64,000 nucleotides of DNA, taken from the NCBI RefSeq assembly GCF_002778275.1, contig NZ_NESG01000005.1, positions 62,001 through 126,000 on the forward strand. Reading direction: 5' to 3'. Position numbers and translations under genes: made by a program. Within the stretch, counting starts at the first letter, position 1; each line of letters opens with the position of its first letter. This document shows, piece after piece, positions 5,579-8,778 of the stretch. Under the pieces are notes generated by a model that was not told the origin of the DNA, did no database searches, and worked only from the letters and a program-made list of their open reading frames with translations. The stretch is from Limnohabitans sp. G3-2. Lineage in GTDB: Bacteria; Pseudomonadota; Gammaproteobacteria; Burkholderiales; Burkholderiaceae_C.

Positions 5579-6892
5579 TCAGTAAGTCTCGAGGTGCAAA
5601 CGGCCTTCTTTCTTGAGCGTGCCACCGATGGCGTCCCAGTCCAGACCGGCGTTTTGCGCAATGTCGCGCAGCGCCATGACCACGCCCTCTTCCATGCTCT
5701 TCAAACCGCACACATAGAAACAGGTGTGGGGGTCTTTGAGCTGCAGTGCGATGTCGGCAGCGCGGTCACGCAGGGCATCCTGCACATAGCGCTTGGACTT
5801 GCCCACTTCACGCGAGAAGGCGAACTCGATGTCGATGAAGTCTTTGGGCAAGTTGTTGAGGGGCCCAAAGTAAGGCAACTCGGCGGGGGTGCGGGCACCG
5901 AAGAACAGCATGAGTTTGCCGCCCTCGAACTTGCCACTGGCGCGCAGGCGGCGACGCCATTCGGTCATGGCGCGCATGGGGGCAGAGCCTGTGCCGGTGC
6001 AGATCATGACGATGTTGCTCTTGGGGTGGTTGGGCATGAGGAAACTCGCGCCGAACGGTCCGATCACTTGCACCTTGTCGCCCACCTTCAGGTCGCACAT
6101 GAAGTTGGAGGCCACACCGCGAACGGGTTTGCCGTCGTGGTCCTCCAGCACGCGCTTGATGGTCAGCGACAGGTTGTTGTGGCCCGGACGCTCGCCGTTG
6201 CGCGGGCTGGCGATCGAATATTGGCGCGCATGGTGCGGCTTGCCGTGGGCATCCAGCCCTGGCGGGATGATGCCAATCGACTGGCCTTCGAGCACAGGAA
6301 AAGGCAACTGGCCAAAGTCCAAGACGATGTGGTGGGTGTCGTAGTCCTGGTGCCCAGCGAGTTGGCCCACTTCGGTCACGCGCAGGTTGCCGGTGACGGT
6401 GGCGGTGATGGTTTTGTCTTGCGCCTTGGGGCCATACAGGTTGGTGTAGGCATGGGCCGCCGACCAGGGTGGGATGGTCGCGCCGAACAGCGCCGAGTTG
6501 AAGCCTGAAGCGGCGGCGGTGCTGACGGCCGAAGCCGAAGAAGCTGCCGCCGCTTGCACAGCGGTTTGTGCTTCTTCTTGCGCGGCATCCACCACACCAC
6601 CCGCGGCAGCCAGTTCTTGCGCACTCAGTTCTGCGGGCAAGTCGAACCACTTGAGTTGTTCTTCGATGCTGTAGGCCTGGGCTTTGGGCACCATGCGCCA
6701 ATTGTCAATCGAGCCGGTAGGGCATGGCGAGATGCAGTCCATGCAACCGTTGCAGACATCGGCCTTGACCACGTAATTGAGCGAGTCGTGGGTGATCGCG
6801 CCCACCGGGCAAATGGCTTCGCAGGTGTTGCAGCGGATGCAGATTTCCGGGTCAATCAGGTGTTGCTTGATCAGCGTCGCTTCGGTGCTCAT
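5579..6892 (-). CDS. boxA: Benzoyl-CoA 2,3-epoxidase reductase component
   Basis: BoxA takes electrons from NADPH and feeds the diiron epoxidase BoxB. The 437-residue protein has two N-terminal [4Fe-4S] motifs ([16 protein letters not shown] and [16 protein letters not shown]), an Ala-rich linker around residues 105-145, and a ferredoxin-NADP reductase-like C-terminal half. That half has an FAD motif ([12 protein letters not shown]), a nucleotide-binding segment ([14 protein letters not shown]) and a C-terminal aromatic residue (HLETY). The ATG at 6892 is preferred because MSTEATL begins the conserved part. It is followed after 6 bp by fdsGB and separated from boxB by a 458-bp gap holding three hairpins. 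Confidence 0.95.
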
Positions 6893-6945
6893 GTCTTGAC
6901 TCTCTTGTATTTGGCGTTTTATGTCTGTGGTCTGCGAGGTCCGCA

Positions 6946-7017
6946 ACGGTATGGCTTGGGGCCGGGCGCCTCATGCTGGGGTAGCCCAAATCGGCGCCCG
7001 GCCCCAAGCCATACCGT
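6946..7017. repeat. Long hairpin H1 (25-bp perfect arms, 22-nt loop)
   Basis: Arms 6946-6970 and 6993-7017 are perfectly complementary over 25 bp. The loop, read on the - strand, is GATTTGGGCTACCCCAGCAT plus GA, almost the same as the loop of H3 read on the + strand. H1 is therefore an inverted member of the same family. Its stem sequence differs from H2 and H3 (it starts ACGGTATGGCTTGGGG). There is no T-run on either side. Confidence 0.95.
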
Positions 7018-7078
7018 CGCTCAGTGCCTGCATGAACGTGTCAAGTCTACTGGCAGCCTTGGCATGCAGCTCACCCAT

Positions 7079-7156
7079 GTCATTGAAAGGGCAAGGGGCG
7101 GGTGACGATTTTCGGTACCCCGTCATGAGGAACCCGCCCCTTGCCCTTTCAATGAC
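7079..7156. repeat. Long hairpin H2 (25-bp perfect arms, 28-nt loop)
   Basis: Arms 7079-7103 and 7132-7156 are perfectly complementary over 25 bp. The loop-proximal stem GGGGCGGGT/ACCCGCCCC is shared with H3, while the outer stem (GTCATTGAAAGGGCAA) is not. The loop 7104-7131 begins GACGATTT, contains GGTACCCC and ends CATGAGGA, like the loop of H3. Confidence 0.95.
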
Positions 7157-7230
7157 CGCCTCCACTCAAGGCAGAACATAGAAACGACCAGCCACACACC
7201 CACCCACAGACGCTCAACAAACACCATGCC

Positions 7231-7302
7231 GTTGACAGGGGAAGGGGCGGGTGACGATTTGGGGTACCCCAGCATGAGGAACCCGCCCCTTCCTCTGTCA
7301 AC
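7231..7302. repeat. Long hairpin H3 (22-bp arms, one mismatch, 28-nt loop)
   Basis: Arms 7231-7252 and 7281-7302 pair over 22 bp with a single mismatch that would be G-U in RNA. The loop 7253-7280 begins GACGATTT, includes the palindrome GGGGTACCCC and ends AGCATGAGGA. It lies 48 bp downstream of the boxB stop on the - strand. H1, H2 and H3 together occupy about half of the boxB-boxA gap; the remaining bases show no gene. Confidence 0.95.
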
Positions 7303-7350
7303 TGCTGCCCCCACAACGAAGCAGAGGCAGCAGTCAAATCAGAAACTCAA

Positions 7351-8778
7351 TCAGTTGAAGCGGACGTAATCAAAGTCCACAGGCTGACGGTTGATGCCCA
7401 TGACGGGTGGCGCGATCCAGTTGGCGAACTTGCCTGGCTCGACGACACGGCCCATCAGGCTGGCCACATAGGCGCGGTCTTCGTTGGTCGGCAGCCACTC
7501 GCCCACTTTGGCCATCCACTCGGCGTCGGTCACCACACGGCCTTCGGGCGTGATCTTGGAGCCGGACAAAGAACCGATGTTGCGGTGGAACGCCTTGTGA
7601 GGGGCGGTCAAGGTGAAAGGAATGCCGGCCTTGGCGATCACACGGTTCCAACGGTCGATACCGCCTTTGGAGTCGGTGATGTAGTCGTCGCGCAGCACTT
7701 CGTTCAAAGCGTTGAGCATCGGCACTTCTTTTTCGACCAGCTTGCCGTCTTCGACCGACAAGATCTTGTAGCTGTTGCCTTTCAAGACGTGGTCGTCGGT
7801 GCGCTTGCCTTCTTCGTAACGGCCTTTGAGGCCGGAGCTGTAGAAGGTGGCGGCGTTGGACGACTCATCGGCACCGAACAGGTCGATGGTCACCGAGAAG
7901 TGGAAATTGATGTAGCGCTGGATGGTCGGCAAATCGATCACGCCGGCTGCGCGCAGCTTGCCCACGTCGTCGGTTTTGAGCTGGTTCATCACGTCCACCG
8001 TGCGCTGGATGGTGCGGCTCACGCCCGACTCGCCCACGAACATGTGGTGCGCTTCTTCGGTCAGCATGAACTTGGTGGTGCGGGCCAGTGGGTCAAAAGC
8101 CGACTCGGCCAAGGCGCACAGCTGGAACTTGCCATCACGGTCGGTGAAGTAAGTGAACATGAAGAAGCTCAACCAGTCCGGTGTCTTCTCGTTGAAGGCC
8201 TGCAAGATGCGGGGGTTGTCTTCGTTGCCGCTGTTGCGCTGCAGCAGGGCGTCGGCTTCTTCACGGCCGTCTTTGCCGAAGTATTTGTGCAGCAAATACA
8301 CCATGGCCCACAGGTGGCGGCCTTCTTCGACGTTGATTTGGAACAGGTTGCGCAGGTCGTACATGCTGGGCGCGGTCAGGCCCAGGTGACGCTGCTGCTC
8401 CACCGATGCGGGTTCGGTGTCGCCTTGCGTCACGATGATGCGGCGCAGGTTGGCGCGGTGCTCGCCAGGCACGTCTTGCCAGGCTTTTTCGCCGATGTGG
8501 TCACCGAAATGGATCTTGCGGTCTTGCTCACCAGGGTTCATGAAAACACCCCAGCGGTAGTCGCGCATCTTGACGTGGCCGAACTGGGCCCAGCCTTGGG
8601 GGTCCACGCTCACGGCGGTGCGCAGGTACACGTCCATGTCGGTCGAGCCCTCGGGGCCCATGTCGTCCCACCAGTTGATGAAGTTGGGCTGCCACTGCTC
8701 CAAGGCGCGTTGCAGGGTGCGGTCTTCCGACAGGTTGACGTTGTTGGGGATTTTTTCGCTGTAGTTGATACCGGACAT
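7351..8778 (-). CDS. boxB: Benzoyl-CoA 2,3-epoxidase, diiron oxygenase component
   Basis: BoxB epoxidises the ring of benzoyl-CoA using O2 and electrons from BoxA. The 475-residue protein starts MSGINYSEKIPNNVNL, typical of BoxB. It has two E-x2-H diiron-type motifs: E152-x2-H155 in NVEEGRHLWAM and E241/E242 with H244/H245 in LTEEAHHMF. Length equals that of characterised BoxB proteins. It lies 92 bp downstream of boxC on the - strand. It is cytoplasmic with no membrane segment. Confidence 0.96.
   Translation of the reverse strand: MSGINYSEKIPNNVNLSEDRTLQRALEQWQPNFINWWDDMGPEGSTDMDVYLRTAVSVDPQGWAQFGHVKMRDYRWGVFMNPGEQDRKIHFGDHIGEKAWQDVPGEHRANLRRIIVTQGDTEPASVEQQRHLGLTAPSMYDLRNLFQINVEEGRHLWAMVYLLHKYFGKDGREEADALLQRNSGNEDNPRILQAFNEKTPDWLSFFMFTYFTDRDGKFQLCALAESAFDPLARTTKFMLTEEAHHMFVGESGVSRTIQRTVDVMNQLKTDDVGKLRAAGVIDLPTIQRYINFHFSVTIDLFGADESSNAATFYSSGLKGRYEEGKRTDDHVLKGNSYKILSVEDGKLVEKEVPMLNALNEVLRDDYITDSKGGIDRWNRVIAKAGIPFTLTAPHKAFHRNIGSLSGSKITPEGRVVTDAEWMAKVGEWLPTNEDRAYVASLMGRVVEPGKFANWIAPPVMGINRQPVDFDYVRFN

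Follow-up and report, generated by a model that had tools for sequence, protein, structure and literature searches.

A mobile family of hairpins with a kept internal loop and free arms, close to REPINs, in the boxB-boxA gap of a Limnohabitans genome

In integron attC sites the structure is kept on one strand while the sequence of the stem varies, and the folded single strand is the substrate. Template-switch correction keeps inverted repeats perfect, and the REPs between malE and malF have a role in message protection or in the expression ratio. For REPINs, TnpA_REP is reported to process folded single-stranded DNA of one strand and to read its bulges and loops (PMC8266576), and the middles of REPINs are reported to show compensatory changes (PMC3116915). 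Here we analyzed a 64,000-nt stretch of the genome of Limnohabitans sp. G3-2 (the window, which begins at C21:62001), together with related loci and genomes. No description of the hairpin repeat reported below was found among the titles and starts of abstracts of the open-licence PMC papers listed. Rfam gave no match in the window and, in six further loci, only matches far under the gathering scores.

Three hairpins in the boxB-boxA gap

The 458-bp gap between boxB and boxA, with benzoate-degradation genes on either side, is occupied by three hairpins, H1, H2, and H3. BoxC lies upstream, and the names BoxA and BoxB are those of NCBIfam equivalogs. The features, in window coordinates, are as follows.

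5579..6892, minus strand: boxA, benzoyl-CoA 2,3-epoxidase subunit BoxA (TIGR03224, 717 bits)
6944..7019, minus strand: hairpin H1, 76 nt (covariance model R1, 75.0 bits, and folding)
6969..6992 (C21:68969-68992), minus strand: H1 core GATTTGGGCTACCCCAGCATGAGG (core pattern search)
7020..7079, no strand: spacer between H1 and H2, which form an inverted pair, 60 nt (mean pairwise identity 0.730 in 17 genomes)
7080..7155, plus strand: hairpin H2, 76 nt (R1, 86.8 bits; inverted repeat 100% complementary)
7107..7130, plus strand: H2 core GATTTTCGGTACCCCGTCATGAGG (core pattern search)
7156..7228, no strand: spacer between H2 and H3, 73 nt (mean pairwise identity 0.725 in 17 genomes)
7229..7304, plus strand: hairpin H3, a diverged copy of H2, 76 nt (R1, 75.4 bits)
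7256..7279, plus strand: H3 core GATTTGGGGTACCCCAGCATGAGG (core pattern search)
7351..8778, minus strand: boxB, benzoyl-CoA 2,3-epoxidase subunit BoxB (TIGR03225, 894 bits)

The original prediction of three long hairpins between boxB and boxA was borne out by folding, by inverted repeats, and by the core pattern, with the hairpin ends corrected by R1 placement to those listed. RNA folding of the GATTT strands gave -73.2 kcal/mol for H1, -58.4 for H2, and -57.8 for H3 (z scores of -11.5, -9.4, and -6.9), and for each hairpin none of 200 shuffles was as stable. The arms of the inverted repeats in the window are 25 to 28 nt long and 92 to 100% complementary, and the core GGTACCCCAGCATGAGGA (3 mismatches allowed) matched three times in the window versus 0.06 expected. 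H1 consists of an outer stem of ~27 bp, the internal loop GATTT/ATGA, and an inner hairpin; relative to the boxB-boxA operon, its GATTT strand is sense, whereas that of H2 is antisense. The core first quoted, GAC...GGTACCCC, fits H2 and H3 only, as H1 is inverted relative to both and has the core GCC-GATTTGGGCTACCCCAGCATGAGG. Likewise, the stems described as different do differ between H1 and the others (26 of 52 arm bases in common with H2, 24 of 52 with H3); H2 and H3, however, share 42 of 52 arm bases and look like diverged duplicates. Two smaller features accompany the hairpins: a short inverted repeat, CTGCTGCC...GGCAGCAG, at window positions 7302-7333, which lies directly past the boxB stop, touches the foot of H3, and is present in many of the box gaps listed, and the word TAGACT in the H1/H2 spacer (7020-7079), which recurs across the hairpin-bearing box gaps listed, though the spacer overall diverges.

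A structure kept on one strand

The anatomy of the family was drawn from 188 nonidentical copies (at most 2 substitutions) at 126 loci. From the apex outward, a copy has a tetraloop TACY, an inner stem NNGG/CCNN that covaries (CTGG/CCAG, GTGG/CCAC, GCGG/CCGC), an internal loop of GATTT facing CATGA, and a C-G pair beyond it in 185 of the 188 copies, followed by either a G-A/A-G tandem mismatch (A-G in 127 of 188, G-A in 114 of 188) or standard pairs. The paired fraction of the outer stem is 0.88 to 0.98 up to position 26 and then falls to 0.58 and 0.46 at the two positions that follow; stem length peaks at 27 to 28 (96 of 188 copies), and the feet of the hairpins are not conserved from site to site. 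Because the inner hairpin varies in length in some copies, chiefly those within uvrA, the part common to all is the outer stem with the C-GATTT / ATGA-G loop. A kink-turn was considered for the internal loop and rejected, the inner helix being out of register with the consensus of that motif.

Covariation was scored on an alignment (A1) of 59 dissimilar copies, taken from the 167 of the 188 that lie off a locus edge and have at least 21 of 27 pairs. In A1 93.4% of cells were paired, a figure biased upward because only copies with at least 21 of 27 pairs were admitted. Covariation scored 0.894 (shuffles, 0.189), or 0.13 and 0.17 when the partner was slid by one column; cells with double changes numbered 622 versus 170 in shuffles. 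Pairs changed on both sides (28 of 31) barely exceeded the shuffles (25.4; 3 of 500 reach 28). The sequence of the outer stem is free and bound only to pair, and the internal loop is kept. Selection for the structure, one of two readings offered by the original prediction, is supported by these values and by the bias in stem mismatches described next.

Mismatches in the stems are unevenly divided between the strands. In 171 of the 188 copies, G-T outnumbered A-C by 199 to 37 on the GATTT strand; in the 64 copies that are less than 75% alike, the ratio was 88 to 13 (p = 7.5e-15), whereas 68 other hairpins from the same loci, taken as a control, had 10 and 8. Because each G-T mismatch appears as A-C on the complementary strand, it is the GATTT strand, folded as a single strand, that is constrained. 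By host-gene direction and context, the G-T:A-C counts were 24:9 in uvrA sense, 39:7 in uvrA antisense, 41:5 between codirectional genes in the same sense, 43:4 between codirectional genes in antisense, 30:11 in convergent gaps, and 4:2 in divergent ones. In the two hairpins of a dispersed unit in genome G102 (see below), the counts were 25:5 and 49:24. The excess is weak in places, namely, in H2 at the box site (11:7), in the second G102 hairpin (HP2), and in divergent gaps; the box-site counts are not independent, one G-T pair being common to most copies of H1 and another to many copies of H3. RNA energies favor the GATTT strand in H1, H2, and H3, whereas DNA energies (GATTT strand versus complement: H1, -40.8 versus -41.2; H2, -32.8 versus -33.0; H3, -27.4 versus -25.5) favor it only in H3, so that a role as RNA suits these values at least as well as one as single-stranded DNA.

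Structured RNA that serves the host (in processing, stability, or regulation) and is carried in the messages of neighboring genes would account for the RNA folding preference, the wobble-tolerant pairing, and the conservation of copies at a fixed site. It would also fit the placement of the single copies elsewhere: in 40 of 49, the hairpin has on its 3' side the facing stop codon of an opposite-strand gene, at a distance of 13 to 44 nt in 37 of those 40 (several of them orthologous). In these same 40 of 49, however, the message of the facing gene would carry the complement of the GATTT strand. The G-T excess is found for every host-gene direction, including uvrA antisense and codirectional antisense, where the GATTT strand is not the host message, which speaks against a fold of that message, as do the copies inside the uvrA coding frame. 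We regard a host RNA as an unlikely explanation of the family.

Gene context also bears on intrinsic or bidirectional transcription terminators. The copies are intergenic and near stop codons, and convergent neighbors (45 of 188 copies) exceed divergent ones (16 of 188); these contexts come from a codon-usage gene caller, class 26 of the 188 as edge cases and 4 as inside cases, and cover several sites that are mutually orthologous. Yet no terminator-like or promoter-like site was found at 6880-7370 in a search covering loops of 3 to 8 nt only, the 3' flank is A-rich rather than T-rich, some copies lie inside uvrA, and those in the window lie between genes of one operon. Termination as the function of the family is highly improbable.

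Distribution, mobility, and the link to RAYT

Further copies of the loop core, which the original prediction expected in the complete genome and in relatives unless the hairpins were a local accident, were found throughout, along with the covariation described above. The Limnohabitans sp. G3-2 genome itself has copies in 8 places by the core pattern (at most 3 mismatches) and in 13 by R1. With R1, hairpins were detected in 85 of 90 Limnohabitans genomes and in 63 of 299 genomes of the family (41 of 138 genera). Of 300 genomes drawn evenly from the order, family members included, 5 had hairpins, and only G406 among these lies outside the family; by eye, its match has the same internal loop and a longer inner domain. 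Copy numbers and absences in the family- and order-wide searches are soft, as at most 16 candidates were scored per genome under stricter filters. The exact core pattern occurs in at least 118 stretches of public genomes, and nearly all of the matches listed carry the label Burkholderiales, beta proteobacteria, or a genus of that order; the other labels in the list are those of two Akkermansia loci, one Cryomorphaceae locus, and one labeled "bacterium." As to these records, two labeled Akkermansia muciniphila (L013 and L018) and one labeled Cryomorphaceae (L009) carry the repeat, and the Akkermansia labels look wrong, at least for L018. One exact pattern had no match in viral contigs, and the window gap had no blastn match in plasmids or phages.

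The hairpin family is mobile. In genome G102 it forms the ends of a ~245-bp unit with at least 26 full copies, 75 to 100% identical to the query, in which an inverted pair of hairpins encloses a spacer of 77 to 79 nt that is palindromic by eye. Among distinct G102 copies, mean identity was 0.975 and 0.980 in the loops versus 0.68 and 0.77 in the arms, and pair types had changed on both sides at 19 of 24 stem positions in the first hairpin (HP1) and 14 of 24 in HP2. Across all pattern loci, neighboring hairpins at most 450 bp apart were oriented "-+" in 46 cases, "+-" in none, "--" in 5, and "++" in 1; this is the inverted-doublet orientation of REPINs, but in doublets of whole hairpins. An element that remakes its arms, the other reading of the original prediction, finds no support as an abrupt process: the G102 arms differ by compensated substitutions and grade into one another, with a few arm exchanges, and at orthologous sites each site has the same arms from species to species.

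The G102 unit with its inverted ends, and the hairpins of G118, whose two end types differ in their outer flanks (by eye), could be taken for ordinary MITEs, that is, for the ends of a classical DDE transposon whose transposase lies elsewhere. Across 25 G102 copies, however, no target-site duplication was detected (no 8-mer direct repeat above shuffles at z > 2.5, a signal that old copies could have lost), and no longer, gene-bearing copy of the unit was found among the G102 matches; no flank complementarity was detected among the G102 copies either. Nor are double-strand transposases expected to impose single-strand pairing on one strand, as is seen here. An origin as DDE ends is accordingly quite improbable. 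Genes lying between two hairpins were inspected as possible transposases and rejected, being ordinary by eye (superoxide dismutase, hydrolase, transporter).

Insertion within a protein gene was seen in uvrA: hairpins lie within an open uvrA frame in 12 of 24 uvrA loci (R1, E <= 0.001), the frames stay open through them, and other loci have no hairpins at the same linkers. The giant uvrA of the Limnohabitans sp. G3-2 genome, which encodes 2112 aa (L160:4577-10915; C21:344576-350914), has four family hairpins in-frame in its linkers. The same linkers in relatives hold other repeats, such as LSRVRERAGVRV...PHPSPLPEGEGA in L172 and LGSDPN-type repeats in L174, L183, and L187.

Candidate enzymes were sought among Y1 genes. 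Eighteen of 24 Limnohabitans genomes have one Y1 match, five have two to four (two in Limnohabitans sp. G3-2), and G003 has none; for the Y1 gene of G102, the best NCBIfam model is that of a REP-associated tyrosine transposase, at 74 bits and thus below the cutoff of 80. All 13 RAYT loci of the genus that were examined are flanked on either side, no more than 700 bp away, by GGGGTCAGA-type repeats (at most 1 mismatch), and in 23 of the 188 hairpin copies the hairpin lies between GGGGTCAGA and TCTGACCCC REP ends. An exact 25-mer, AATTGGGGTCAGATCAACATTAATT, is shared by 10 hairpin loci and 4 RAYT loci (those of G001, G006, G012, and G020), or 14 of 334 loci. Among 15 hairpin regions from seven genomes, 8 have the hairpin between REP ends; in the regions of G001, G006, G012, and G020, 6 of 11 have it in REPIN form, and in other regions of the same genomes (L335, L339, and L345 among them) the hairpins, paired in inverted orientation or single, are free of REP ends. 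This sharing of a REP by hairpins and the RAYT gene implies that, in one Limnohabitans clade, some hairpins are the centers of REPINs that belong to the resident RAYT, and that a second form of the family occurs alongside. The original prediction had not recognized the family, and Rfam has no match; at least this clade ties it to REPINs. Copies thus take three forms: single hairpins, inverted pairs (which end the ~245-bp unit in one genome), and REPIN centers in one Limnohabitans clade. At L039:4405-4486, 32 nt separate inverted copies of the 25-nt REP, two in number, a distance too short for a family hairpin, so hairpin-less REPINs exist beside hairpin-bearing ones.

The link does not extend to every copy. 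REP ends on both sides are absent in 165 of 188 copies, window hairpins included, and the window has no match to the REP AATTGGGGTCAGAT with up to 2 mismatches; in Limnohabitans sp. G3-2, the RAYT has REPs of the clade type, whereas the window hairpins have none. That RAYT gene (L133:3875-4700) is flanked by inverted TTTAATTGGGGTCAGATCCCAATTAA, and a second, weaker Y1 gene in L134 is without TTTAATTGGGGTCAGATCCCAATTAA. A pattern search up to ~4 kb from the RAYT gene at the 13 genus loci gave no convincing hairpin, only one match, in L142, that carries 4 substitutions. The 85% complete draft of G008 includes a RAYT but no hairpin; in the 81% complete draft of G003, which has ten hairpins, no RAYT was found. 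Presence of RAYT was also tried as a marker of hairpin carriers and discarded, as all 17 of the 17 carriers have it, but so do 17 of 20 noncarriers.

Retention at the box site and comparison with known systems

Box gaps were compared in the Limnohabitans sp. G3-2 genome and in 60 of 76 others with a BoxB match. Hairpins, one to four per gap, were detected in 45 of these 61 genomes, by a detector that missed some visible by eye (in G355, G342, G343, and G397), and 13 genomes have a minimal gap with none. These 13 carry 3 to 33 copies elsewhere (17 in G006, 33 in G020, and 26 in G358). G390 and G395, drafts that are 94% and 90% complete, have box gaps without the hairpins of their relatives and no match genome-wide at E <= 0.001; G392 and G396 likewise have no hairpin matches genome-wide. 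One box gap, L219 (in G360), has a hybrid hairpin with one H3-like and one H2-like arm, apparently from a deletion between neighboring hairpins.

Identity at the site was measured in 17 genomes: G355, G342, and G343, together with all but two (G023 and G367) of the 16 genomes whose layout is "--+". The arms (0.865 to 0.975) and loops (0.841 to 0.951) exceeded the two spacers listed above and the stretch before H3 (0.728), with the stretch after H1 at 0.809 and the coding ends at 0.937 and 0.931. The arms at the box site have compensated changes between species. Fixed copies are thus conserved, though mobility alone would predict their decay.

Perfect arms could also be a by-product of mutation, in that quasipalindrome correction by template switching would yield compensated arms in long palindromes. 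Such correction gives no reason to expect the strand-specific excess of G-T (88:13), the common stem length, the conserved internal loop, or arms more conserved than the adjoining spacers, and we consider it very unlikely. Self-correction of palindromes alone, we reason, would not bring the rate of change in the arms under the neutral one, and since the arms are more conserved than the spacers, the window hairpins look to be retained under constraint with their REP ends gone.

The explanation that we favor, and hold to be somewhat probable, is that the folded GATTT-sense strand is read via its internal loop by an enzyme, likely a RAYT in at least one clade, and that the box copies are kept for local use. 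Such an enzyme, most likely a RAYT (Y1/HUH) in at least the REPIN-bearing clade, would recognize the folded GATTT-sense single strand and would read its internal loop, borne on a stem of fixed length, the arms needing only to pair; with the loop as what is read, only the pairing and the stem length of the arms would be selected. The box-gap hairpins may then be kept for a local action such as protection of the boxB message or tuning of the boxB:boxA ratio. Both the enzyme and this host role are what we infer, and we file the family as miniature palindromic mobile DNA close to REPINs. More tentatively, the C-GATTT / ATGA-G loop on a ~27-bp stem of free sequence might be a mobile module defined by its fold alone, read single-stranded, borne by various carriers (RAYT REPINs, the two-hairpin unit, in-frame uvrA inserts) even within one genome, and later kept for host use; this broader proposal we find possible but doubtful.

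Within one genome and across 90 congeners, the hairpins provide a natural series of mobile palindromes that preserve their structure but not their sequence, and they make testable what RAYT-type enzymes read in the folded strand. A covariance model combined with the strand test (G-T versus A-C) detects such elements where sequence searches fail. The box site further suggests that hairpin repeats between the genes of an operon can be old mobile DNA under constraint.

Among known systems, attC sites are alike in keeping a structure on one strand despite a variable stem, but differ in that the conserved internal loop here lies near the apex rather than the foot and that no cassette array was present at the sites looked at. 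The Rickettsia palindromic elements are palindromes that occur in-frame in protein genes (PMC10969869), as in uvrA here; they belong to another host lineage, and the present hairpins are mostly intergenic and have covarying arms. MITEs, as reviewed in the same paper (PMC10969869), share with the ~245-bp unit its nonautonomy, its inverted ends, and its dispersal in one genome, but the ends here are long, free-armed hairpins instead of conserved inverted repeats, and no target duplication was found. The nearest likeness is to REPINs and RAYT, which are described as small nonautonomous extragenic palindromes in inverted doublets, with compensatory changes in the middle and a transposase acting in trans (PMC3116915, PMC8266576). 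In REPINs as described there, conservation lies in the end 16-mers and the middle is free, whereas here it lies in the apex loop, with free arms, and most copies (165 of 188) are not bracketed by a pair of REP ends; in one Limnohabitans clade, the hairpins' REP ends and the flanks of the RAYT gene are nonetheless identical in sequence in the same genomes.
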